From an uncultured Ectothiorhodospiraceae bacterium (GTDB taxonomy: Bacteria > Pseudomonadota > Gammaproteobacteria > UBA6429 > Thiohalophilaceae): a stretch of DNA of 57,127 bases. The first letter of the stretch is position 1. Every line of letters starts with the position of its first letter. The notes beneath the pieces were generated by a model. It worked only from the letters and a program-made list of their open reading frames with translations. It had not been told where the DNA came from and did not search any database. The translations under genes were made by a program, and so were the position numbers. Of the stretch, positions 11,793-36,789 are shown piece after piece. The stretch covers positions 1 to 57,127 of the forward strand of contig CAMYMU010000031.1 of NCBI GenBank assembly GCA_947259575.1, given 5' to 3'.

Positions 11793-12260
11793 ATGATCAA
11801 ATTAAAATTAATATTTATAACGCTAGTTATTCAATTTTTAGTCGTGGTTAATGCTCATGCGGGTGACTTCGCCTGGTTGGATAAACTATCGATTGAGGCA
11901 CGTGCTGATGCCTCTGGATTTAAAGCCAGGATCGCTGCTCGTTTTCATATTGGCGATGCTAAGGTAAGCGCCATTATTCGTGATGTAGGTGGGCATGCAG
12001 ATGCCTATATGGTTTTGCGCCTGGCAGAAATGTCACATCTATCGATTGATACAGTAATAGGGCGTTATCATCGTAATAAGGGAAAAGGTTGGGGCGTATT
12101 GGCCAAATCTCTCGGCATCAAACCAGGTTCAAGTGAGTTTCATGCTCTTAAACGTGGTCATGATCTGAATGGTGGAGGTAGTGCAAAAAATAAGAAGCAT
12201 AAGCATAAAGAAAAGGGCAATGGAAAAGGCGGTAAAGACAAAGGAAAGGGTAAGAACTAA
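11793..12260 (+). CDS. Small secreted protein with Lys/Gly-rich tail
   Basis: The product has 155 residues, with a signal peptide cleaved after VNAHAG. A compact helical domain follows (about 30-125), including a KGWGxLAKSLGIKPGS motif found in a recurrent uncharacterised family of exported proteobacterial proteins. The last 30 residues are almost only Lys, Gly, His and Asn, giving a strongly basic tail that may bind nucleic acid, polyanions or the cell wall. Function unknown. It is convergent with the YdcH-family gene, with 20 bases between the stops. Confidence 0.72.
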   Translation: MIKLKLIFITLVIQFLVVVNAHAGDFAWLDKLSIEARADASGFKARIAARFHIGDAKVSAIIRDVGGHADAYMVLRLAEMSHLSIDTVIGRYHRNKGKGWGVLAKSLGIKPGSSEFHALKRGHDLNGGGSAKNKKHKHKEKGNGKGGKDKGKGKN

Positions 12261-12280
12261 TCTGGTTCCAATTTTTCACA

Positions 12281-12520
12281 TCATGCATTTTTTAATATTT
12301 CAAAGAGTTGATCTTTGAGGTTTAGCCGCAATTTCTTTCGTTCTTCCAGATATTCATCAGAAGTCGTCTCATTGCCTTCTTCAATTCGACGAACCTCGTG
12401 TTCAACCTCATGATATTCATCGAACAATTTGGCAAAATGGGGATCGCTATTCTTAAGCTCGTGAATCTTATCCTTGTATTCAGGAAGTTCATGAATTAAG
12501 TCGTGTTTTTCACCTAACAT
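12281..12520 (-). CDS. YdcH-family (DUF465) small helical protein
   Basis: The 79-residue, highly charged protein is predicted to form a helical hairpin. Its pattern (HDLIHELPEYKDKIHELKNSDPHFAKLFDEYHEVEHEVRRIE) is characteristic of the YdcH/DUF465 family, whose function is not established. There is no signal peptide. The length is normal for the family. Confidence 0.82.
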   Translation of the reverse strand: MLGEKHDLIHELPEYKDKIHELKNSDPHFAKLFDEYHEVEHEVRRIEEGNETTSDEYLEERKKLRLNLKDQLFEILKNA

Positions 12521-12768
12521 TTATATTACCTCGAAATTCAGAAAACCATTTACTCGCATAGTGTACCATTTTTGTACCCGTTCTACCCGGGTAGCCTGAT
12601 TATCCCGATAAGAGTTTTCGCATGCAAGCTACAAAATATTCAGCAACATTCTATGCTTTTTGTGCAGGCGTGATTCATCAATAATGAGGTAGTCATCAAC
12701 TTGTAAAGTTAAGCGTAGATACTGGGCTTTGGCGCTCGTATATAGAGCTATCTTTAAGTTAGAAACAA

Positions 12769-12782
12769 TTGATCAGCATCAA
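12769..12782 (+). promoter_or_regulatory. FNR/ANR-type binding site upstream of aldolase
   Basis: TTGATCAGCATCAA is a second perfect TTGAT-N4-ATCAA match. Its centre lies 59 bases before the aldolase ATG, a spacing that allows activation near a -41.5 position. The rest of the 314-base gap (12521-12834) contains no gene that I can see. Confidence 0.75.
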
Positions 12783-12834
12783 TGCGCTTGCAAGCCGGTA
12801 GCAAGAAAATGTATTTTCAATAGAGGAGATTGCC

Positions 12835-13884
12835 ATGATTGATATTGCAAACATTCTTGCCAGTGAAGCAGACTCAATCCTTGATCATACCTGCACGGGG
12901 ATACCAAAATCAGAAATTCACGCCCCGGGACCTGACTATATCGAGCGAATTGTCGCCCGCAAAAACCGTAAACCGGCAGTACTCAGAAATCTCAATGCCT
13001 TGTATAACCACGGTCGTCTGGCAGGGACAGGTTATATGTCACTGTTGCCTGTTGACCAGGGAGTGGAGCATTCGGCCGGGGCCTCTTTTGCACCGAATCG
13101 GGCATTCTTCGATCCTGAAAATATAATCAAGCTGGCCATAGAGGGCGGGTGCAATGGGGTGGCATCGACCCTCGGTGTGTTGAACAGCATTGCACGTGAC
13201 TATGTGCACAAAATACCGTTTATTGTAAAGATCAATCACAATGAATTGCTCACTTATCCTAATCAATATGATCAAACTCTGTTTGCCAGTGTCGATCAGG
13301 CCTTTGATATGGGCGCTGTCGCGGTGGGTGCCACCGTTTATTTTGGGTCGGAGCAATCACGTCGACAAATACTTGAAATCAGTGAAGCATTTGAGCATGC
13401 CCACTCACTGGGAATGGTCACCGTGTTGTGGGCCTATTTACGCAATAACGCTTTTAAGAAGGATGGAACGGATTATCACACTGCCGCTGATCTAACGGGA
13501 CAGGCCAATCACCTGGCTGCAACCATTGATGCGGATATTATCAAGCAAAAGCAAGCGCAGAATAACGGCGGTTTCAATGCGATTGAGTTTGGTAAAACCC
13601 ATCCAAAAGTCTATTCCGAGCTTACATCAGAGCATCCCGTTGATCTGGTTCGTTACCAGGTGGCAAATTGTTATATGGGACGTGTTGGTATGATCAATTC
13701 AGGTGGTGCATCGGGCGAGGACGATCTGCATCAGGCAGTACGGACTGCAGTGATCAATAAACGTGCTGGTGGCATGGGGTTGATATCTGGGCGCAAGGCC
13801 TTTCAGAAGCCGATGGAAGAGGGTATTACCTTACTAAATGCCATTCAGGATGTGTATTTATCTGACGCAGTGACAATTGCTTAA
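12835..13884 (+). CDS. fbaB: Class I fructose-bisphosphate aldolase (FbaB/DhnA type)
   Basis: This is a 349-residue cytosolic aldolase that cleaves or forms fructose 1,6-bisphosphate in glycolysis and gluconeogenesis through a lysine Schiff base rather than a metal. Family landmarks are [12 protein letters not shown] near residues 67-79, [10 protein letters not shown] near 127-136, VGATVYFGS near 164-172, and the IIKQK segment near 238-242, which probably holds the active lysine. The C-terminal half has the [13 protein letters not shown] phosphate-binding loop. An AGAGGAG ribosome site lies just upstream. The perfect FNR box in its promoter suggests increased expression when oxygen is low. 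Confidence 0.93.
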
Positions 13885-26531: not shown

Positions 26532-26704
26532 TCCATTTATACTGGCCTGGAATATACCCTTAAGACTAGATAGGTCCCTGATCTCATACTTTTCGAAAAA
26601 ATTTCCGAAATTATCTAAAAATCCCCATTTTCGTTCGTCCTCTTGATTGAGTTCGCGCATAAGCGCATTAGCAGCCAACAATAAATGGACAAAGGGGAAT
26701 GAAA

Positions 26705-29700
26705 ATGAAACGAACTATCCTGGTACGGCTTCGTACCCTGGTTACAGGCTTAACCGTATTTAGTTTAGCGGCCTGTGGGGGCGGTGGCGATACCGATCTG
26801 CCCAACTCGAATCCTGAAATTAATACTTTAACTGCCTCACCGAATCCTACCGACACATCGACGGAAACAACCATTAGCTGGAACGTCTCCGATGACGATG
26901 GTGACGCGGTTTCCTGCTCATTGGATGTCGATAACGATAGTGTCACGGATTACACAATCGCAGATTGTATTAGTACGACATCGCTAAATCATACCTATAA
27001 CACCGAGAATACCTATATGGCGCGCTTAACAGCCGATGATGGTAATGGCGGAAGCGCACAACGGGATGTCACTATCGTGGTCGACAATGATCTATCCATT
27101 TCGCCAGTCATCAGTTCATTTACGGTCAATCCCAATCGGGGTTACATAAATTCAGCCGTGTTGTTTAGCTGGAATGTTAGCGATGCAAATCTTGATACGC
27201 TGACGTGTTCGCTTGATGTAGACAATGATGGTACCACGGATTACACCATTAACGATTGTGCCAACAATACTTCGCGCTCACACACGTATACCATGGCGGG
27301 TAATTATAGTGCTGTGTTGAGCGTGGATGATGGCGGTAATGGCGGAAGTGACCAGGCATCAATCACTTCGATCACACAACTTGAGCCGATTAATGTTGAA
27401 GTGAGTGTGGATACGGTAAAAGTGGTAGCTGGTGAACGTATACATTACTCTATCACTGTCGCTAATGCCGGTGGGATCCCGGTCGATGGTGTTAACGTTC
27501 GAATGAATGTACCCACCGGAATAAGTTTCCATCAGGTCTTTAATACTGAACCCACGGCGAGTTCTGGTTGTGGTTCAAGTTGTTCTGCAGGCTCAGCGCC
27601 AAACTGGATCATTGGCTCGATTGATGCTGGTGGTAGTGTCACAATAGATATTGATGCTCTGGTTTCCACTTCAGTGCTTGATGGCACGGTCATTACGGCA
27701 CCCATCACCATCAGTGCTACGAACTTTAATGATGTCATCATTAACAAAGATGTACAGGTAGAGAACACTCCACTAGCTGAGATGAACCTGAGTGCCTCGA
27801 CTGATCCAATCATTCCTGGCCAGACGTTTACCTATCATGTCGATGTCGGAAACATTAGTCCGGGGACATTGACCAGCTTGCAAATGCAGACCCTCTTACC
27901 CGCTGGATTGAGCGTAACATCTATCAGTGATGGAGGTAGTGAAGTCAATCCTGGTGAAGTCGTTTGGGATGTCGCTAGCTTGAATGTGCAAAGTGGTTTG
28001 CGCCGAAGTGTGACGGTGATGGCTGATAGCAATTTATTAGCCGGTCAGGTGCTAACCGCGCAAACTGATTTAACGCATTCTGGTGGTACTTCAGAAAATA
28101 CAGCAGAATATGCCTTGACGGTTGTTAACAACAGCATTCCTTTGAGTGTTGATCTCGCCGTTGTTGAAGGTCCGGTGGCGGCAGGGGAACGTCTGCAATA
28201 CAACTTAACCTTGAGTAATCCATCCAACTTACCGGTGGATGGGATCAGTTTGGTATTACGCGTGCCTGAGGAAATCAATTTCCACCAGGCCTTCAATGCA
28301 GAACCAAATGCCAACAGTGGCTGTGGTTCAAGTTGTTTACCCAGAAGTGAAGCGCGTTGGAACATCGGTACTATACAGGAAGGTGGAAGTCGTACTATTA
28401 CGGTGGATGCGCTGGTGGCTACATCCGTGCCTGAAGGTAGCCTGATTGCTACACCGATCCGTGTTGAAGCTGCGAACTTGAATGATACTATTGAATTACT
28501 TAAGGTCACTCAGGTTGGTACACCGTCAACGGAAGTAGTCTTCAGTGCCTCGACTGATCCTGTCGTGCCTGGTGAGACCTTCAATTATACTGTTGATATC
28601 GGCAACATCAGTACTGGCACACTAACTAACATGCAGGTGCGAACTTTATTACCTGCTGGCGTCAGTGTTGCATCGATTAGTCATGGTGGTAGTGAAATCA
28701 ATCCCGGAGAAGTTGTCTGGGACATCGCTAGCCTGAATGTACAGAGTGGTGTGCAACGCAGTGTTAGTGTTGTCGCGGATAGCAACTTAGTCGCGGGCCA
28801 GACCCTGGCAGCAAAAACGGAATTGCGTCATGACGGTGGTATGGAAGTGGATAACGTAGCGGATCATGCACTCACGGTTGTTGCCACAGCGATCCCCTTA
28901 AACGTAGAACTAGCGGTTGCACAAGCGCATGTCGAAGCGGGTAAACGTTTGCGCTATAACGTGACTTTGAGTAATCCATCAAGTCTGCCTGTGGATGGAA
29001 TCAGTATGGTGATGCGAGTCCCTGAGGAGATCAGTTTCCATCAGGTCTTCAATGCGGAACCGACAGCCAATATGGGATGCGGTTCAAGTTGTTTACCCAG
29101 AAGCGAGGCGCGTTGGGATGTCGGTACCTTGCAGGAAGGTGAGAGTCGTACCATCACCGTGGATGCACTGGTCGCAACAAGCGTTCCTGAAGGTAGCCTG
29201 ATTGCTATGCCGGTGCGGATTGAGGCGACTAATCAGAACGACACCATTGATTTGTTCAAGGTTAACCTGGTAGCGGAGACTTTTGCCGAAGTCGCCATGA
29301 GTGCCTCGACCGATCCAGTGGTGCCTGGTGAGACCTTCACTTACAGCGTCGATGTCGGCAACATCAGTACTGGCACCCTGACTAACCTGGAGGTACGTAC
29401 CTTTTTGCCAGCAGGGGTTAGTGTCGCATCGATTGATAATGGAGGTGTTGAAGTTGCGCCAGGTGAGATCGTCTGGTCGCTGGGGTCGTTAAATGTCGTT
29501 AGTACCACACAGTTCAACGTCGATGTCATCGCATCACCCGGTTTGAATGGTGGTGAAGCTCTCAAGGCGAAAACCGAGTTACGTCACAATGGTGGTCAAG
29601 CTATTGATAACGTCGCAGAACACACCGTTAATGTGGTCGCAACCGCTTCACCGTTAACAGTCTCTTTCAGTGCCAATCCAAATCCAGTGGTGGTAGGTGG

Positions 29701-30034
29701 TGCCTCGTTTTATACGATCATGATCACTAACACCTCGGCCTTACCTGCCGATGCGGTTGAAATGGTGTTCCGGGTACCTGAAGAACTGAATTTCCATCAG
29801 GTGTTTGATGCCGAGCCGAATGCCAATGCAGGTTGTGGTTCATCATGTTTACCTACCAATGAAGCTCGCTTTAGTCTGGGAACGATTCCGGCTGGTATGA
29901 CACAGACGATTCTGATCGATATGAATATCGCGACGACCGCAACCGCAGGTGGTCTAATCGTATCACCCATTCGGGTGACCAGCTCTGCGCTGGAAAACAC
30001 CATCGATCGTGAATTTGTGGTGCCAATCCAGTAA
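26705..30034 (+). CDS. Giant repeat lipoprotein (PKD-like plus DUF11-like domains)
   Basis: The 1109-residue product has a lipobox (SLAAC, Cys24, then GGGG) and is therefore anchored in a membrane, probably the outer one. Two Ca-binding-like PKD modules follow (about 38-125 and 128-220), each with an SCSLDVDND...DYTIxDC signature. Next come three and a half copies of a unit of about 252 residues made of two DUF11-like immunoglobulin folds. Each copy has a GCGSSC pair that may form a disulfide. DUF11 repeats occur in bacterial surface and adhesion proteins. The ATG at 26705 has the better ribosome-site spacing. A strong terminator follows directly, so it is transcribed apart from the sigma-factor genes. 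Confidence 0.87.
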   Translation: MKRTILVRLRTLVTGLTVFSLAACGGGGDTDLPNSNPEINTLTASPNPTDTSTETTISWNVSDDDGDAVSCSLDVDNDSVTDYTIADCISTTSLNHTYNTENTYMARLTADDGNGGSAQRDVTIVVDNDLSISPVISSFTVNPNRGYINSAVLFSWNVSDANLDTLTCSLDVDNDGTTDYTINDCANNTSRSHTYTMAGNYSAVLSVDDGGNGGSDQASITSITQLEPINVEVSVDTVKVVAGERIHYSITVANAGGIPVDGVNVRMNVPTGISFHQVFNTEPTASSGCGSSCSAGSAPNWIIGSIDAGGSVTIDIDALVSTSVLDGTVITAPITISATNFNDVIINKDVQVENTPLAEMNLSASTDPIIPGQTFTYHVDVGNISPGTLTSLQMQTLLPAGLSVTSISDGGSEVNPGEVVWDVASLNVQSGLRRSVTVMADSNLLAGQVLTAQTDLTHSGGTSENTAEYALTVVNNSIPLSVDLAVVEGPVAAGERLQYNLTLSNPSNLPVDGISLVLRVPEEINFHQAFNAEPNANSGCGSSCLPRSEARWNIGTIQEGGSRTITVDALVATSVPEGSLIATPIRVEAANLNDTIELLKVTQVGTPSTEVVFSASTDPVVPGETFNYTVDIGNISTGTLTNMQVRTLLPAGVSVASISHGGSEINPGEVVWDIASLNVQSGVQRSVSVVADSNLVAGQTLAAKTELRHDGGMEVDNVADHALTVVATAIPLNVELAVAQAHVEAGKRLRYNVTLSNPSSLPVDGISMVMRVPEEISFHQVFNAEPTANMGCGSSCLPRSEARWDVGTLQEGESRTITVDALVATSVPEGSLIAMPVRIEATNQNDTIDLFKVNLVAETFAEVAMSASTDPVVPGETFTYSVDVGNISTGTLTNLEVRTFLPAGVSVASIDNGGVEVAPGEIVWSLGSLNVVSTTQFNVDVIASPGLNGGEALKAKTELRHNGGQAIDNVAEHTVNVVATASPLTVSFSANPNPVVVGGASFYTIMITNTSALPADAVEMVFRVPEELNFHQVFDAEPNANAGCGSSCLPTNEARFSLGTIPAGMTQTILIDMNIATTATAGGLIVSPIRVTSSALENTIDREFVVPIQ
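27388..30031 (+). repeat. Tandem protein-coding repeats of about 755 bp
   Basis: Within the giant lipoprotein, units begin at about 27388, 28139, 28897 and 29651; the last is only half a unit. Units two and three are the most alike. The repeated peptides include SLPVDGISMVMRVPEEISFHQ-type and GNISTGTLTN-type segments. Spacing and similarity indicate tandem duplication, which can change copy number by recombination. Confidence 0.85.
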
Positions 30035-30058: not shown

Positions 30059-30090
30059 GCCGAAGACGTCCGTTCGTCTTCGGCTTTTTT
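30059..30090 (+). terminator. Rho-independent terminator after the repeat lipoprotein
   Basis: GCCGAAGACG pairs perfectly with CGTCTTCGGC across a six-base loop and is followed by six T. It separates the repeat lipoprotein from the sigma-factor operon. Confidence 0.92.
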
Positions 30091-30206
30091 ATTCCTCATG
30101 GAATGAATTCAGAGGCATCCTGGTGATTGTTTGGCTTTCCTGCTTCGGTCATAATGTTCTGACTAAGACATATAATAACTATATATAGGGAACGAGTCAG
30201 CTAGCC

Positions 30207-30998
30207 ATGTGGAATGAGTGGCGAATAATCTATGAGGATGCCTGGACTATCGAGTTCAGTGCCATCGTTCGTAAACGCATACCTTATTCCAAGGATAGTG
30301 CGCAGGAAGTTATGGACGAGGTTCGTCAGGAACTGGCGATAAAACTGCATACACTCGAAAATGTTCCCAATTCAGTGAATGCTTATTTACGCACTGCATT
30401 TCGTAACACCCTGGAAGATTATTTACGCAAAAAAGAGGGCTACCCCCGACCGCCTGAATGGATTAAACGCTTAGGCGCTGCCTACGAACGGATCTATAAG
30501 TTGTTGTGTCTCGAGAATCGGGCTGTCAATGATATCCATGCGATGCTGGAGAGCCTCTACCAGTATACCTTTGAATTCGTTGAACAAGTTATTTCGGAAG
30601 TTCGCGCCGGGGTGGTCAATTGTGGTTCATGGCGGCATAGCGTGTCGATAGACGCGGCCGTCTCTGAGGTTGAGAGTGCAGGCATGCATAGTCAAGTAAA
30701 CCAAAGCCCGGAATCTATTTTAGAGGAGATGGATAGTTCCGCGGTCTTTGCCACGATTTTAGGACAGCAGGCATCAGGTCATTCTGAAAAGATTCACCAA
30801 ATTTTAAGCTTACTTGGCCAATGCCAGATAAACGATGACGAAAGAATATTGTTGCGTATGGTATACGCCGATGGTCATTCGATTTCAGAAGCGGCACGCC
30901 AGATTAAAATCAAAGATGCTGACGCGCGCAAGCGATTAAAGTCTGTCTATCAACGCCTAAAACAGGTTTTAACCGATGCCGGGATCACAGAATTATGA
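30207..30998 (+). CDS. Sigma70-family (ECF-like) RNA polymerase sigma factor
   Basis: The 263-residue product has a region-2-like N-terminus (about 15-90, including VNAYLRTAFRNTLEDYLRKKEG) and a clear region 4 helix-turn-helix near 210-255 (ERILLRMVYADGHSISEAARQIKIKDADARKRLKSVYQRL). The segment between them is about 120 residues, much longer than the 20-50 usual in ECF factors, and may hold a regulatory helix bundle. It is followed by a membrane anti-sigma-like gene and the TPR-CHAT protease gene. The start has only a weak GAG ribosome site. Confidence 0.78.
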   Translation: MWNEWRIIYEDAWTIEFSAIVRKRIPYSKDSAQEVMDEVRQELAIKLHTLENVPNSVNAYLRTAFRNTLEDYLRKKEGYPRPPEWIKRLGAAYERIYKLLCLENRAVNDIHAMLESLYQYTFEFVEQVISEVRAGVVNCGSWRHSVSIDAAVSEVESAGMHSQVNQSPESILEEMDSSAVFATILGQQASGHSEKIHQILSLLGQCQINDDERILLRMVYADGHSISEAARQIKIKDADARKRLKSVYQRLKQVLTDAGITEL

Positions 30999-31097
30999 TT
31001 AAAAATCGCTTAAATAGTGCGTCTGAATATTATGAGCAAGAGGAATTGACTCAAGTACAGGGTATCCTTTGCTATAACAATTTAACGAGTGATATTG

Positions 31098-32000
31098 ATG
31101 ACCGATAAGCACGACAACAATAATAGAGACGACAAGGCCTCGCCTGAAGAACGGTTGCTGGGTTTGGTTCGCCTGTTGTCGGATCAGGAACCACCAGCAG
31201 GGCCCGCCCCAACATTACAGGAAATTCAGGACTGGCATTTAGGTAAGTTGGATGCAAAAAGGGCGCAGCAAGTTAAAACACATGTTGCCCGCGATCCAGC
31301 CTGTTACCAATTATGGCGTGATTTAATCGCTGCTGAGAAAGAGGCGGAATTGGTAACAGAAAAACCGGTCTCAATCGTTTCAAAACTGTTAAATCTTTTC
31401 AAACAGTGGTGGACAACTCCCACCAGATCCTGGGCGGGTACTGGGATGGTGACGGCCATGCTGGTCGTAGTGGTTGCCGTGTTAATGCCCTATTTTGGCA
31501 GCTGGTCGCCGCTGGATGATCCTATACAGGCCGAACTTGAATATGACTGGCCTTATGCAGGGATGTCGATAACACGCGGAGGCGATCTCGATTATCGACA
31601 GAAGGTTGCGATCCAGGTCGGTCTGCGCAGTGCCATACAAACAACAACCCTGGCAAAACAGGGTTGGGCCGAAGCACTACAGAGCCTGCCAGAAAAAACC
31701 TTGCCCTGTGACAAGGCAACGGATGTGCAGGTTTGTCAGCAATCCACGAAAATATTATCGAACGTAGGCCTGCATACTGGCGTACAGTTCCTGGCCTGTC
31801 TGGATTATGAGAGACATCAGCAAACTTATTATAGTGATGAATATTGGCAAAACTTAACCAGGGCCTGGAGGGTGATCGCTAAGGAGTTAAAGCCGCTTAA
31901 CGTAGCAGTATTACAGGAAAAAATTGATCAGCTCAGTACGTCTAATAGTAAGGGACAACAATGTGGGTTAGTACGTGATGTTATATACATGTCATATTAA
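31098..32000 (+). CDS. One-pass membrane anti-sigma-like protein
   Basis: The 300-residue product has a cytoplasmic N-terminal domain of about 105 residues. It includes EIQDWHLGKLDAKRAQQV and HVARDPACYQLW, which resemble the degenerate zinc-finger anti-sigma fold but keep only the first His and one Cys of the H-x3-C-x2-C motif. One transmembrane helix follows (about 113-133). The remaining 165 residues would be periplasmic, contain several Cys and match no family I know. Position between a sigma factor and a CHAT protease supports an anti-sigma role. It begins 100 bases after the sigma gene and its last 23 bases overlap the protease gene. Confidence 0.7.
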   Translation: MTDKHDNNNRDDKASPEERLLGLVRLLSDQEPPAGPAPTLQEIQDWHLGKLDAKRAQQVKTHVARDPACYQLWRDLIAAEKEAELVTEKPVSIVSKLLNLFKQWWTTPTRSWAGTGMVTAMLVVVVAVLMPYFGSWSPLDDPIQAELEYDWPYAGMSITRGGDLDYRQKVAIQVGLRSAIQTTTLAKQGWAEALQSLPEKTLPCDKATDVQVCQQSTKILSNVGLHTGVQFLACLDYERHQQTYYSDEYWQNLTRAWRVIAKELKPLNVAVLQEKIDQLSTSNSKGQQCGLVRDVIYMSY

Positions 32001-35000
32001 ATATAGAGCTTTTAGTTTATTCATTTTTTTCCTATTCATGCTCATGCTTGGTTATTCCGTACCAAGCGCTGCAGAAGATGGTGAACCATTATTTCTTGCA
32101 CCTAATGTCAAACCATTAATTCAATCAGCATACAATTACGCGGCACAGCGAGATCGCCGCTCCTTAAAATCAATGCGTGATAAGGCAATCAAACCCTTAA
32201 ACAAAATCGCCGAACGATCAGTGCAAAATGAAAACTATGGGCAGGCGATTTATATCTACAAGGAACTGCACCAACTATATATACAGGTCCATGGTGAAAA
32301 ACACCGCACTACCTTAAACATGTACAGCCGCCTGGCGAATACGTATCAGTTAGCCGAAAAATTTACTGAGCAGATCAAAATATTACAATACCTGGTTAAA
32401 CATTATGAAACCCAGTTTGGTAGTAACTATCTTTCAACCAGAAGATACCTGGAAAACCTGGCTATTGCCTATAAGCAAAACAAGGCCTATGTTAAGTCGG
32501 CTGACACATATGCGCGACTGTTGAAAATATTTAAAGACAACGGTATTGGTAGGAACCGAAAAAAATACAAGTTAATACTTGGGCGAGTTGCAGATTTATA
32601 TATACAACAAGGCGATTATCACAGGGCTGCGCCATATTTTATGGAGTCAGTGGGAATTACGCCTGGTGCGAAGATTAACCTGACTGTCATGAACATGACG
32701 AAATACTATAACTACGGACAAATGTTACAGATCACTGGTAAATATGCCGAGGCAGAAGATCTGTATAAACAAATGCTGGCATTCAGCAAGAGCCAGTCCA
32801 AGTCTATGTCGGTGCAGATGCCTTTTGAAAACATCTATGCACATCTGGGCACATTATATCATCAGATCGGCGCCTATGATAAGGCGCTGGGATATAAACA
32901 ACAGGCCTACAAAGGTTATGCAAATAAATTCGGTAATAAATCGGTCCTTACCGCTTATATGCTAAACAATTTGGCTGAAACCCAGCTGGCATTAAAACAG
33001 TATGACAAAGCATTAAGTTCGATGAAGATCGTCGAGTTAGTATTAACCCCCCAGATCAAGAAAAAGAATGCATTATATATAGATAAGAATTTTGCGATGC
33101 CAACCCTTGCCCTGGCGTACTCTAAAGTAGGGCAATATAAAAAGGCAGAAGAGATATTTATCACGGCACTTGATGAACTCAGTAAAGAATATTCACCCAG
33201 GCATGTTCTGGTAACCTATGCAAAAAGTAATCTGGCTGAAATCTATTATCTGCAAAATCGCCTGGATGAGGCTGAGAAAATAGCGTTTGAGGCATTGAGT
33301 GCTGCAACTGTCAAAAAAGCACCTTTGTTAACGTCCAGAATTTATTTTGTCCTGGCCCGAATTCGTCATAAGCAATCATTTAGCTCTGAGGCTATCTTTT
33401 ATGGCAAGCAGGGGATTAATCACATACAAAGTTTGCGCAGTGGCCTGGTTAGCAGAGATGAATCACTGCAAAGAAGTTTTGTTGATAGTCAACAGGAAAA
33501 CTATGAGGTACTGGCCGGTTGGCTAATTGATGCCGGGCGCTTGTCCGAGGCAGAACAGGTACTGGCGATGTTAAAAGAAGAAGAGTACTTCAACTTTATT
33601 CGTCGCAATGATGCGAATAACCCCAAGGCCACTTTGGCTAAGCTAACGGCAATCGAGGCCGAGCAACGCCAGAATCTGATAAAGAGTAGTACCTCATTAA
33701 TTAAGTATGCACAAAAGCTGGATGAGTTAGAGAAGCTCGATCCTGAAATTCGTTCTGAACAAGATAAAAGGCAGATCAAGAAATATAAAAAGTTACTCAA
33801 GGTTGCAAGAAATAATTTTGAGCAGACCCTGCAGCTCATTCGTGCGGTCTTAGCTAAACGATCGACTGAGAACTTAACAGCACAACTTGATACGGGGTCT
33901 TATCAGGCATTGTTAGAAAAGTTAGGCGACGATGTGGCGCTGGTGCATATCTTACCGCTTGAGAAGGATTTACGAATCCTGTTGCGGACAACCAAGGGTA
34001 ATTTTGCAAAAAAACTGGCTGTTGATAAAAAGACGTTTAATAAAAAGATCAATACATATAAACAGTTGGTAAAGCGTCCAGACAAACCTGTAACTGAGTT
34101 AGTGAAATCCTCGCGTGAAATTCATAACTGGATCATTGGCCCAATAGCAAAGGAATTGTCACAGGCTAAGATTAAGACGCTTATGTTTTATAAAAATGGC
34201 GTATTGCGTTACATCCCTCTGGCAACTTTACATGATGGAAAAGCCTACTTAATCGAGAAATATGCGATTAGCAATTATACCGCCGCGGCGAAAGAATCAT
34301 TTGATCATGCTGCACAGAAACAATGGCAGGTGGCCGGTCTGGGCGTGAGTAAGCAACATGGTAATTTTTCTCCATTGCGGATGGTGCCTTATGAACTGGA
34401 CAGCATCGTAAAATCTTCAAGTACTGATCCCAATGGTATTTTTTCAGGTCAGGTTTATTTGGATGAAACCTTTACCAAAAGCCTGTTTAAAAAATCTTTA
34501 ACTGGAAATTATAATGTCAGTCACATTGCAACACACTATAAATTTATGCCCGGTACCGAATCCGATTCTTTTTTGTTGATGGGTGACGGTAGTCACCTGA
34601 GCCTGGCAACACTGCGATCGGCTAATTATGATTTCAAGTCCATTGATCTACTAACCTTGTCTGCCTGTGAGACTGCGGTAAGTGATACCGCAGCGGATGG
34701 TCGCGAAGTCGAAGGACTGGCGACCCTAGTACAAAAGCAGGGTGCCCGAGGCGTCATCGCGACCCTGTGGCCTGTTGCAGACTGCAGTACCGGCCAGTTT
34801 ATGAAACGTTTTTATCAAAACCGTAACCTGGGGATGAGTAAGGCCGAGGCCTTGCGCAAGACCCAGATGGCTTTCCTCTCAAATAAAGTACCGGTACGAA
34901 CGGCGGTCGCTAGTGATCCTGTAAAAGGCTGTCAGATAGCCTCCAACAGTCGGGCAACGTATCGGCATCCGTATTTCTGGGCCCCATTTATTCTGATGGG

Positions 35001-35013
35001 TAACTGGAATTAG
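31978..35013 (+). CDS. Exported TPR-CHAT caspase-like protease
   Basis: The 1011-residue protein starts with a signal peptide (FSLFIFFLFMLMLGYSVPSAA, ending near residue 32). A long array of tetratricopeptide-type helices follows (about 45-550), with KYAEAEDLYKQ, DKALGYKQQAYKGY and RLDEAEKIAFEAL units. Next is a linker helix pair (560-630) and a C-terminal CHAT domain (about 690-1011). The caspase-like dyad is intact: His853 (HIATHYK) and Cys897 (LTLSACETA). Domain ends such as GARGVIATLWPVAD and YFWAPFILMGNW are typical. The TPR array would sense or hold a substrate. Export suggests that it works outside the cytoplasm, next to the periplasmic part of the overlapping anti-sigma-like protein. 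ATG 31978 is preferred to GTG 31975. Confidence 0.88.
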   Translation: MLYTCHIKYRAFSLFIFFLFMLMLGYSVPSAAEDGEPLFLAPNVKPLIQSAYNYAAQRDRRSLKSMRDKAIKPLNKIAERSVQNENYGQAIYIYKELHQLYIQVHGEKHRTTLNMYSRLANTYQLAEKFTEQIKILQYLVKHYETQFGSNYLSTRRYLENLAIAYKQNKAYVKSADTYARLLKIFKDNGIGRNRKKYKLILGRVADLYIQQGDYHRAAPYFMESVGITPGAKINLTVMNMTKYYNYGQMLQITGKYAEAEDLYKQMLAFSKSQSKSMSVQMPFENIYAHLGTLYHQIGAYDKALGYKQQAYKGYANKFGNKSVLTAYMLNNLAETQLALKQYDKALSSMKIVELVLTPQIKKKNALYIDKNFAMPTLALAYSKVGQYKKAEEIFITALDELSKEYSPRHVLVTYAKSNLAEIYYLQNRLDEAEKIAFEALSAATVKKAPLLTSRIYFVLARIRHKQSFSSEAIFYGKQGINHIQSLRSGLVSRDESLQRSFVDSQQENYEVLAGWLIDAGRLSEAEQVLAMLKEEEYFNFIRRNDANNPKATLAKLTAIEAEQRQNLIKSSTSLIKYAQKLDELEKLDPEIRSEQDKRQIKKYKKLLKVARNNFEQTLQLIRAVLAKRSTENLTAQLDTGSYQALLEKLGDDVALVHILPLEKDLRILLRTTKGNFAKKLAVDKKTFNKKINTYKQLVKRPDKPVTELVKSSREIHNWIIGPIAKELSQAKIKTLMFYKNGVLRYIPLATLHDGKAYLIEKYAISNYTAAAKESFDHAAQKQWQVAGLGVSKQHGNFSPLRMVPYELDSIVKSSSTDPNGIFSGQVYLDETFTKSLFKKSLTGNYNVSHIATHYKFMPGTESDSFLLMGDGSHLSLATLRSANYDFKSIDLLTLSACETAVSDTAADGREVEGLATLVQKQGARGVIATLWPVADCSTGQFMKRFYQNRNLGMSKAEALRKTQMAFLSNKVPVRTAVASDPVKGCQIASNSRATYRHPYFWAPFILMGNWN

Positions 35014-35147
35014 TCTCAAAATCTTACTAATGCATTATTTTTAATTAAATTCATAAAAAGTCCCAAGCTTGTTCGTCTATATAGTTACAAATTCGTGACA
35101 TATTGGCACGATAGAATCGATTAAAATGTAAGCAGGAGAGGGTTAAG

Positions 35148-35273
35148 ATGGTATATGAATTAGTAACTTGGCTGAACATATCGTTTAGTTCGCACAGCGT
35201 TGGTGCATGTTCTATGCGAATAGTCCGGATTTTTCGTTTTGGCAAATTGTTGTACAATATGGACAAAAAATAA
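35148..35273 (+). CDS. Possible 41-residue small protein between the CHAT and CsgG-like genes
   Basis: The ATG at 35148 is preceded by a strong ribosome site (AGGAGAGG, six-base gap). The frame encodes 41 residues (MVYELVTWLNISFSSHSVGA at the start, a basic RIVRIFRFGK stretch after it) and ends in TAA. It has no known relatives that I recognise. It lies in the 447-base gap between the protease and CsgG-like genes, which otherwise shows no gene. The strong ribosome site is the only positive evidence. Confidence 0.35.
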   Translation: MVYELVTWLNISFSSHSVGACSMRIVRIFRFGKLLYNMDKK

Positions 35274-35460
35274 GGTGGCAAAATAAGAAGGTCACTAAAT
35301 ACAAATTTTTGGGGGGCCATGATTAGCTATAAAACTACCCTGATATTTCATTGAGCTTCTGACTCAGTCAGGAACCAATATTGGGCATGGTAGTTAGCAA
35401 TCCAAGCGGCTAAGTAGGATGGTCTTAAGCGCTATAAAAAATTATTAAAGAGGATTTATT

Positions 35461-36789
35461 ATGAATTATTTACGTTCTGTAAAATATATATCCATATCTG
35501 CACTGGCTGTATTTATGTCGGGTTGTGTTAGCACAATGCCGATCCTGGGTGGCGGCTCGGGCAGTTCCGTTTCAGGTGGGGCAGCAGGCGCAACCAGCGC
35601 CAATAAAAACGAGAGCCTGGAATCCTGTGATAAAACATTAGGTACAGTGTCTATATTTGAGGATCAAAGCCTTCCCTGGTGGAACTACTACTATCGCCAT
35701 TACAGAAGTCTAGGATCAACCGTACCAGTAATTCGTACCATGGTCCAACAGTCAAACTGTTTCGTTATTGTCGAACGCGGTGCTGCCATGAAAGCCATGC
35801 AGCGAGAACGTCAACTGATGAATTCCGGCGAACTGCGTGACAACAGTAATTTCGGTAAGGGTCAGATTGCCGCAGCGGATTACACCTTAAGTCCATCGGT
35901 TAATTTCAAAGAAAGCAGTATGGGAAGTATTTCAGGGGCTGCGAGACGCCTCTTGCCTGGTAGCCTGTTTGGTGGTGGATCGGTTGGTGCCAAGAACAAT
36001 CAAGCGGAAACGACTTTATTACTAATTGATAATCGTTCGAGTGTGCAGGTATCCTCATCGATCGGTAGCGCCCAGAATTACGATTTTAGCTTCAGGGGCT
36101 ATTCCTGGGGCGGTAATGGCTGGGGTGGGGCCAGCGGTTATGCAAAGTCAGCCGAAGGTAAAGTGATCATTGCCGCTTTTGTTGACTCATATAATCAGAT
36201 GGTCAAGGCTTTACGTAATTACAAACCGCAACGCGTCAAAGGTGGTCTAGGTACAGGCGGAGCACTTGAAGTGGATGGGCAGAAGAAGGCGAAACCACAA
36301 CCAAAACCACAGTCGCGCAGACAGACATCAACACAAACTGTTGCCGTCTCAAGTGGAGGAAATGTAAACGTACGTGGTAACCGCTCGGTAAATGTCCAGG
36401 TTGATGCCTACGATGAGCAGGCATTAAACGATTATTACCGGGCATTGAAAAAGGCGGTTGAACATCTATCAAAATATTCATCCATGACCCCACAGCAGGT
36501 CAATGCCATTAGCCAACAGTCTGGGATGGGTATCGATCTCTGGACCCTGTTATGGTCACCTAGCTTTGCCGGCGATTTTGAGACATCTAAGATTGAGCTT
36601 GAATCATGGCCGCTAGCGGCAAGGCAAGAGGGATGGAATATCCTGGGTAAAAAAATCAAAAAATACAACAAGCTTTTTTATAAGCACCGCAAGACTCTTT
36701 TAGCAAGCGATGAACTTCGAAAAGATGTCAGGCAGCGACTGAATGATATTGAATTGGTTACCGAAAAAAGTCTCTTTGCAGAAAATTAA
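35461..36789 (+). CDS. CsgG-like outer-membrane lipoprotein
   Basis: The 442-residue product has a lipobox (FMSGC, Cys22) and a low-complexity Gly/Ser linker to about 48. A CsgG-type domain follows (about 55-260), with an opening GTVSIFEDQSL strand, a CFVIVERGAAMKAMQRERQL helix and an AADYTLSPSVNFKES strand. A Lys/Gln/Pro-rich spacer (about 275-300) and a C-terminal helical domain follow. CsgG forms an outer-membrane export pore for curli; this protein is longer and has no curli genes beside it. AAAGAGGA precedes the ATG. It is the last gene of the sigma/CHAT cluster and could be a secretion pore or envelope sensor for it. Confidence 0.82.
   Translation: MNYLRSVKYISISALAVFMSGCVSTMPILGGGSGSSVSGGAAGATSANKNESLESCDKTLGTVSIFEDQSLPWWNYYYRHYRSLGSTVPVIRTMVQQSNCFVIVERGAAMKAMQRERQLMNSGELRDNSNFGKGQIAAADYTLSPSVNFKESSMGSISGAARRLLPGSLFGGGSVGAKNNQAETTLLLIDNRSSVQVSSSIGSAQNYDFSFRGYSWGGNGWGGASGYAKSAEGKVIIAAFVDSYNQMVKALRNYKPQRVKGGLGTGGALEVDGQKKAKPQPKPQSRRQTSTQTVAVSSGGNVNVRGNRSVNVQVDAYDEQALNDYYRALKKAVEHLSKYSSMTPQQVNAISQQSGMGIDLWTLLWSPSFAGDFETSKIELESWPLAARQEGWNILGKKIKKYNKLFYKHRKTLLASDELRKDVRQRLNDIELVTEKSLFAEN

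Follow-up and report, generated by a model that had tools for sequence, protein, structure and literature searches.

Proteolytic release of extracytoplasmic function (ECF) sigma factors is already known, as are CHAT domains beside ECF54 sigma factors and neighbourhoods that combine caspases, ECF sigma factors and TPR proteins. We compared these systems with a cluster encoding an ECF-like sigma factor, a membrane anti-sigma factor, a predicted exported TPR-CHAT protease and a CsgG-like lipoprotein, in this order and all on the + strand (30207–36789), within a 57,127-nucleotide stretch (hereafter the window; positions 1–57,127, forward strand, contig CAMYMU010000031.1, assembly GCA_947259575.1) from an uncultured Ectothiorhodospiraceae bacterium. 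In the Csx29–Csx30–CASP-sigma circuit (Craspase, PMC10028731), the genes for a TPR-CHAT protease, a sigma inhibitor and an ECF sigma factor occur together, and Csx29 has been shown to cleave the inhibitor Csx30; that circuit is, however, cytoplasmic and RNA-guided through Cas7-11, and the account of the 565-amino-acid Csx30 that we draw on mentions no membrane anchor. CalpL/CalpT/CalpS of type III CRISPR (PMC11417357) likewise uses a dedicated protease to cut the anti-sigma of an ECF sigma factor, although the sections describing it depict a Lon-type protease with a SAVED domain that is switched on by cyclic tetra-adenylate. In DegS/RseA/sigma-E and RsiW, as outlined in PMC10028731, a membrane anti-sigma is first cut in its extracytoplasmic part; the first protease there is general, not one swapped among the CHAT, C14 and M48 families beside the anti-sigma gene. 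ECF54 has CHAT, subtilase and carboxypeptidase domains conserved beside the sigma factor, with proteolytic control proposed and, in the relevant part of that paper, no anti-sigma in its description (PMC8999054). EACC2/caspase systems place a caspase-like peptidase, a TPR protein and an ECF sigma factor in one neighbourhood, but are presented as conflict systems with effector-associated domains, in passages that do not mention a membrane anti-sigma (PMC8195603).

The window differs from Craspase in having a signal peptide on CHAT, a membrane-bound anti-sigma resembling class I and no CRISPR component in view, and its adjacent membrane anti-sigma-like gene sets it apart from ECF54 as described. 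Among open-access papers, we found none that describes an exported CHAT, C14 or M48 protease adjoining a membrane anti-sigma. Our data support well the existence of a dedicated exported-protease/sigma module. The genes are co-directional and the anti-sigma and CHAT genes overlap by 23 bases (31978–32000), as re-reading of the coordinates confirmed. This grouping goes beyond chance, because the sigma–anti-sigma–CHAT order recurs in two relatives (G016 and G031) and a protease lies near far more sigma factors of this family than near other sigma factors (16/19 versus 2/20 loci).

Among 40 genomes of the family, the window-type sigma factor occurs in three, window included; a fourth match, in G003, was rejected as an ordinary ECF sigma factor (E = 5.5e-5), and the window-type sigma was not found in a plasmid search. 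G016 carries all four genes, with identities to the window of 60% (sigma), 39% (anti-sigma), 44% (CHAT) and 69% (lipoprotein), plus a 352-amino-acid open reading frame (ORF) that separates CHAT from the lipoprotein gene. In G031, sigma, anti-sigma and CHAT are contiguous until the contig end cuts CHAT before its catalytic residues. Conservation of the neighbourhood, on which the first-pass annotation had staked its proposal, therefore holds completely in G016 and up to the contig end in G031. The block occupies different chromosomal settings: it follows truD in G016 and tilS in G031, and has another setting in the window. In G027, which belongs to the genus of G016, truD is followed by the lipoprotein gene and the sigma/anti-sigma/CHAT block is absent; the flanks of this empty site align with those of G016, and thus sigma, anti-sigma, CHAT and the 352-amino-acid ORF come and go together.

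Sigma profile searches gave matches in 12 of 398 phylum genomes, in 5 of 369 genomes from the class and in 11 of 48 from a second class, and our distant comparison comprised 19 sigma loci, window included, in 18 genomes. Relatives of the same sigma/anti-sigma pair carry different protease families in the position of CHAT. The third gene encodes CHAT at three loci (window, G016 and G031), whereas at nine loci it encodes M48 with TPR repeats, all of one family (G517, G494, G440, G477, G458, G491, G541, G505 and G437:C46; assigned by Pfam for the G517 protein, 2.5e-10, and by model match and reading for the other eight). An intact C14 caspase occurs at two loci: in G415, two C14 genes flank the anti-sigma gene and the sigma gene is divergent, and in G228 an OmpA-family gene separates anti-sigma from C14. 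M48 and C14 proteins had signal-like starts by eye wherever the start could be seen. In G537, anti-sigma, membrane helix and pieces of CHAT are combined in a single protein (Pfam CHAT, 6.5e-16). A further locus without a protease match, in G202, is cut by a contig end. In a tree of 18 sigma factors, the nine M48 rows grouped (91/95), as did the three CHAT rows (98/98), with G228 and G323 on long branches.

Two of these loci deserve separate description. L062 (G228:C27) holds sigma, anti-sigma and the OmpA-family gene with three Pfam-confirmed C14 genes, one of which also matches CHAT weakly, and a fourth ORF (11919–13586) with a weak match to the C14 model. L061 (G073:C1:2424000–2443000), in a single-contig genome, is a decayed locus with pieces of sigma, anti-sigma and C14 caspase.

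As a control, we hand-picked 20 other sigma genes from 48 matches in 10 of the same 18 genomes, and built the protease search models for each comparison from other loci; three test contigs were short. A CHAT, M48 or C14 match lay within 5 kb at 16 of the 19 sigma-family loci and at 2 of the 20 controls (one-sided Fisher, 3e-6), both control matches being weak M48 hits.

CHAT itself occurs in 10 of the 40 family genomes, one copy in each. In G003 (from the genus of the window), G028 and G005 (L065, L063 and L064), an exported TPR-CHAT protein stands beside a standard ECF sigma factor, a zf-HC2 anti-sigma, an exported M48-TPR protein and two-partner secretion genes; Pfam checks covered all six genes in G003, sigma, anti-sigma and M48 in G028, and anti-sigma in G005, with the rest assigned by similarity and order. 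The M48 protein of this set is a relative of the M48 at the distant loci (27.7% identity over 405 amino acids, E = 4e-41). Exported CHAT proteins in the family come with a sigma factor in six of six cases; the other four look non-exported on inspection by eye, and in the stretches fetched around them an ECF model of limited scope detected no sigma. That the genes are chance neighbours with no functional reason for co-location would fit the presence of the window's arrangement in only two close relatives, but is very improbable given the control comparison, the swaps among protease families and this separate ECF/anti-sigma/M48/CHAT set in the same family.

Across the class, CHAT was detected in 54 of 369 genomes (107 matches). 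We took 80 stretches around 82 of these matches, and retained the 62 in which the CHAT model re-found CHAT, dropping the other 18. The protein looks exported in 49 of the 62, and an ECF-like sigma accompanies 9 of these 49 and none of the other 13. The rule that every exported CHAT has a sigma factor, which holds in the family, therefore fails in the class sample. In seven of the nine sigma-bearing stretches, the sigma gene has a membrane gene next to it (by eye); among five sigma-adjacent membrane genes run through Pfam, L114 included, only L114 matched, to zf-HC2 below cut-off. In a near-closed genome, L126 (G384:C4) comprises an ECF sigma, a 140-amino-acid membrane gene and an exported 1,007-amino-acid TPR-CHAT gene with overlapping ends.

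By sequence, the third protein of the window would qualify as a CHAT protease, with a CHAT domain (Pfam, E = 3.7e-55), TPR repeats (TPR_12, 6.6e-36) and the His/Cys dyad. The first-pass annotation was right that the dyad is intact: both residues are in place, and their columns are invariant across eight aligned CHAT domains. The Sec-type signal peptide that it also named was recognized by eye and with a home-made hydropathy rule rather than a trained predictor, and supports export. Because the anti-sigma has a predicted periplasmic part, the two proteins could therefore meet outside the cytoplasm. A PDB sequence search with the full CHAT protein returned TPR proteins only, and a CHAT profile reached 8rot (4e-4) and the TPR-CHAT structure 7zoq (6e-4).

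The sigma factor scores just over the cut-off of TIGR02937 (sigma70-ECF; 43.1 versus 42.9 bits) and below the cut-offs of all Pfam sigma models. It consists of regions 2 and 4 only, as ECF sigma factors do, although a long insert lies between them. In its AlphaFold model (mean predicted local distance difference test (pLDDT) 77.8), amino acids 1–78 superpose on sigma2 of 5uxx_C (Z 7.9, root-mean-square deviation (rmsd) 2.3 over 70) and amino acids 194–260 on sigma4 of 2h27_D (Z 8.7, rmsd 2.0 over 67); the best-scoring row, 9n73_LY (Z 9.5), is an unrelated helical protein, and Foldseek gave no match at E 0.001. The first-pass annotation had drawn a parallel to type III-E CRISPR, and a relative of that protease/sigma circuit, or of another phage-defence system, would contain the same three types of part (TPR-CHAT, sigma inhibitor and ECF sigma; PMC10028731, as there outlined), with the CHAT profile match to 7zoq in its favour. 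We give this origin hardly any credence: CHAT is exported here and the anti-sigma membrane-bound, the sigma reaches 17.5 bits with the III-E model NF041236, whose cut-off is 100, and PADLOC at E 0.1 matched none of CHAT, anti-sigma and lipoprotein, with three weak matches for sigma (E 0.0023 to 0.028). The window holds no CRISPR-like array or array-like repeats; Cas7-11 was not searched for in the genome. The parallel thus stands as analogy, and the candidate CRISPR link was rejected.

The anti-sigma has a single hydrophobic helix with positive charges ahead of it and about 165 residues past it; its topology, read by eye from the flanking charges, agrees with the first-pass description of a membrane protein with a periplasmic part, which is predicted to be helical. 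No curated model scored over its cut-off (NF052375, 15.3 bits versus 100). Where zinc-type anti-sigmas have H-x3-C-x2-C, the window protein has H-x3-D-x2-C. The zinc-type motif is present in the anti-sigmas of relatives (G415, G517 and others), and is common rather than required, being absent from 44% of class I anti-sigma factors according to PMC7406223. Relatives of the anti-sigma match zf-HC2 below the Pfam cut-off. In the AlphaFold model (pLDDT 74.3), amino acids 36–95 weakly match RslA (3hug_H; Z 4.9, rmsd 6.0 over 58; Foldseek E 5.9), Foldseek with the whole model returned no match at E 0.001, and the outer helical bundle resembles only general four-helix bundles, with no specific match. 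The linker just outside the membrane is predicted to be disordered (pLDDT below 50 at amino acids 129–159), but 13 of its 33 positions (amino acids 133–165) are invariant in the three closest anti-sigmas, compared with 34 of 135 in the helical part. In an alignment of 13 anti-sigmas spanning the domain through the outer part, H62, C69, G224 and C234 do not vary and C289 hardly does; the G228 protein matches the family profile at 1.8e-19.

We propose that the membrane anti-sigma would hold the ECF-like sigma at the inner face of the membrane, and that CHAT, translated together with it, would act in the periplasm as its dedicated regulator. A signal or partner met by the TPR part would trigger CHAT, which would most likely cut the flexible, conserved linker that follows the membrane helix on its outer side; general proteases would complete the degradation, and the freed sigma would turn on the operon and a set of envelope genes. 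Sigma binding, cleavage, cut site, signal and regulon are inferred throughout. For the direction of the link, input by direct cleavage of the anti-sigma by CHAT, we estimate a probability of roughly 0.45. The overlapping genes, the fusion in G537, the conservation of a linker predicted to be disordered and the cytoplasmic parallels Csx29/Csx30 and CalpL/CalpT favour it. The G537 fusion (L039, G537:C139, 422–1558), found on one contig of one metagenome-assembled genome (MAG), keeps both ends of CHAT and lacks the catalytic middle.

Several observations weigh against this proposal. Two loci with complete surroundings, G437:C47 and G323, have no CHAT, M48 or C14 match within 5 kb, and in G323 the anti-sigma is not detectable either. 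The 16 protease-associated loci include the G537 CHAT remnant and the decayed C14 of G073, and M48 loci from a single family make up nine of them, giving 6/8 when counted by family. In the class sample, at least three of the 13 stretches scored as non-exported lack the protein start. Two-partner secretion genes occur in 14 of the 49 exported-like stretches, and for this reason the usual role of CHAT may be the processing of secreted proteins. Finally, the periplasmic part of the anti-sigma keeps shared positions while the protease family changes, which also fits with the protease being an output of the switch.

Under such an arrangement, the sigma/anti-sigma pair would sense the envelope otherwise and switch on the exported CHAT, C14 or M48 protease, which would process or clear secreted or surface proteins, with ordinary site-1 proteases cutting the anti-sigma. 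ECF operons commonly contain their own targets. The association of exported CHAT with two-partner secretion, seen in G003 as well as in the class sample, and an anti-sigma outer part that stays recognizable across protease families favour the output arrangement, since a swap beside a homologous anti-sigma would be easy if the protease never touched it. A candidate promoter between sigma and anti-sigma in three genomes would fit too. We nevertheless regard output as rather unlikely: the G537 fusion and the overlap of the CHAT and anti-sigma genes suggest a closer tie, and beside the block in the window and G016, where neighbours were scanned in part, lipoproteins are the only recognized secreted candidates.

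The candidate promoter motif is a lead only, held with low confidence. It precedes the anti-sigma gene in G016 and G031 as in the window; the counterpart of the second match lies, in G016, ahead of the 352-amino-acid ORF preceding the lipoprotein gene, and the third has no equivalent ahead of CHAT in G016 or G031. The window has three exact matches against 0.24 expected, all in the cluster, for a pattern drawn from these same sites; with one mismatch allowed there are eight against 4.96. Genome-wide, matches were not enriched over the reversed pattern (18 versus 26 in the window genome, 18 versus 45 in G016 and 19 versus 27 in G031).

Table 1. Features of the sigma/anti-sigma/TPR-CHAT locus (nucleotide positions refer to the window; aa, amino acids)
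Feature	Position	Strand	Details
ECF-like sigma factor gene	30207..30998	+	263 aa
Sigma factor parts			region 2, ~aa 1–78; insert, ~aa 79–190; region 4, ~aa 192–260
Candidate promoter-like motif DAAAAW-N14-CGTCWR	31000..31025	+	ahead of anti-sigma gene; low to moderate confidence
Membrane anti-sigma gene	31098..32000	+	300 aa from ATG; alternative GTG possible at 31089
Anti-sigma parts			domain, aa 36–80; membrane helix, ~aa 114–132; linker, aa 133–165; helical periplasmic part, aa 166–300
Anti-sigma motif			H62-x3-D66-x2-C69
Candidate motif, third match	31919..31944	+	within anti-sigma gene; probably chance
Exported TPR-CHAT protein gene	31978..35013	+	1011 aa from ATG
CHAT protein parts	CHAT domain, 34105–35004	+	signal peptide, ~aa 1–32; TPR repeats; CHAT domain
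CHAT dyad	34534–34536; 34666–34668	+	His853; Cys897
Candidate motif, second match	35054..35079	+	past CHAT, 381 bases upstream of lipoprotein start
CsgG/LpoB-superfamily lipoprotein gene	35461..36789	+	442 aa; found with the block but separable from it

The lipoprotein gene starts 447 bases past the end of CHAT and is therefore not tightly coupled to the block. Its product is a CsgG-domain lipoprotein by Pfam (24.6 versus a cut-off of 20.8 bits, over profile positions 47–197 of 210), with similarity to LpoB below cut-off and a lipobox, MSGC, seen by eye. The first-pass annotation had cast it as a pore or envelope sensor within a CRISPR-free module of exported CHAT and membrane anti-sigma. The parts, the export and the lack of a CRISPR-like array in the window bear that module out; the lipoprotein role is not supported by these matches or by G027, where the gene occurs without the block. 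Its candidacy as a core member is likewise weakened: the lipoprotein is separable from the block and can stand alone. The 352-amino-acid ORF of G016 (L007, 13501–14559), which carries the motif ahead of it, is lipoprotein-like and without a family.

Other neighbours were noted. Directly upstream of the sigma gene, the window encodes a lipoprotein-like 1,111-amino-acid protein with seven DUF11 stretches and PKD domains (26699–30034), with a terminator-like hairpin at its end (~30059–30091); it is absent at the matching position in G016, where truD precedes sigma. At L060 (G323:C602, 11018–11836), an insert-bearing sigma stands alone; by eye, its surroundings include type I secretion genes and calcium-binding-repeat-like genes.

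The protease could also act indirectly or without catalysis, by processing, or binding through its TPR repeats, another envelope protein, such as the lipoprotein or the DUF11-repeat protein, which would in turn contact the anti-sigma. TPR repeats bind partners, the window and G016 both keep the lipoprotein beside the block, G228 has an OmpA-family gene separating anti-sigma from C14, and the G537 fusion lacks the catalytic CHAT middle (Pfam profile positions 3–61 in its best stretch), as a sensing domain would. We judge an indirect route improbable, however, as the catalytic His and Cys are invariant in all eight aligned CHAT domains, the lipoprotein is found without the block in G027, and G537, a single MAG contig, may hold a decayed gene.

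Returning to direct cleavage as input, we tentatively extend it to a family of sigma/anti-sigma switches with an exchangeable input protease, an exported CHAT, C14 or M48-TPR protein depending on lineage, of which Csx29–Csx30–CASP-sigma would be the cytoplasmic counterpart within a wider caspase-to-sigma theme; we hold this extension possible, at odds somewhat below even. A sigma switch beside exchangeable exported proteases suggests a route by which extracytoplasmic events turn genes on. Exported CHAT proteins are common in the sampled Gammaproteobacteria (49/62), and the papers we found name no substrate for these; a conserved, membrane-bound neighbour that inhibits transcription is a concrete candidate. 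If cleavage occurs, it would mean that caspase-like proteases outside the cytoplasm can signal to gene expression with no CRISPR involved, and the swapping of CHAT, C14 and M48 would illustrate how the input of a sigma switch is rewired in evolution.

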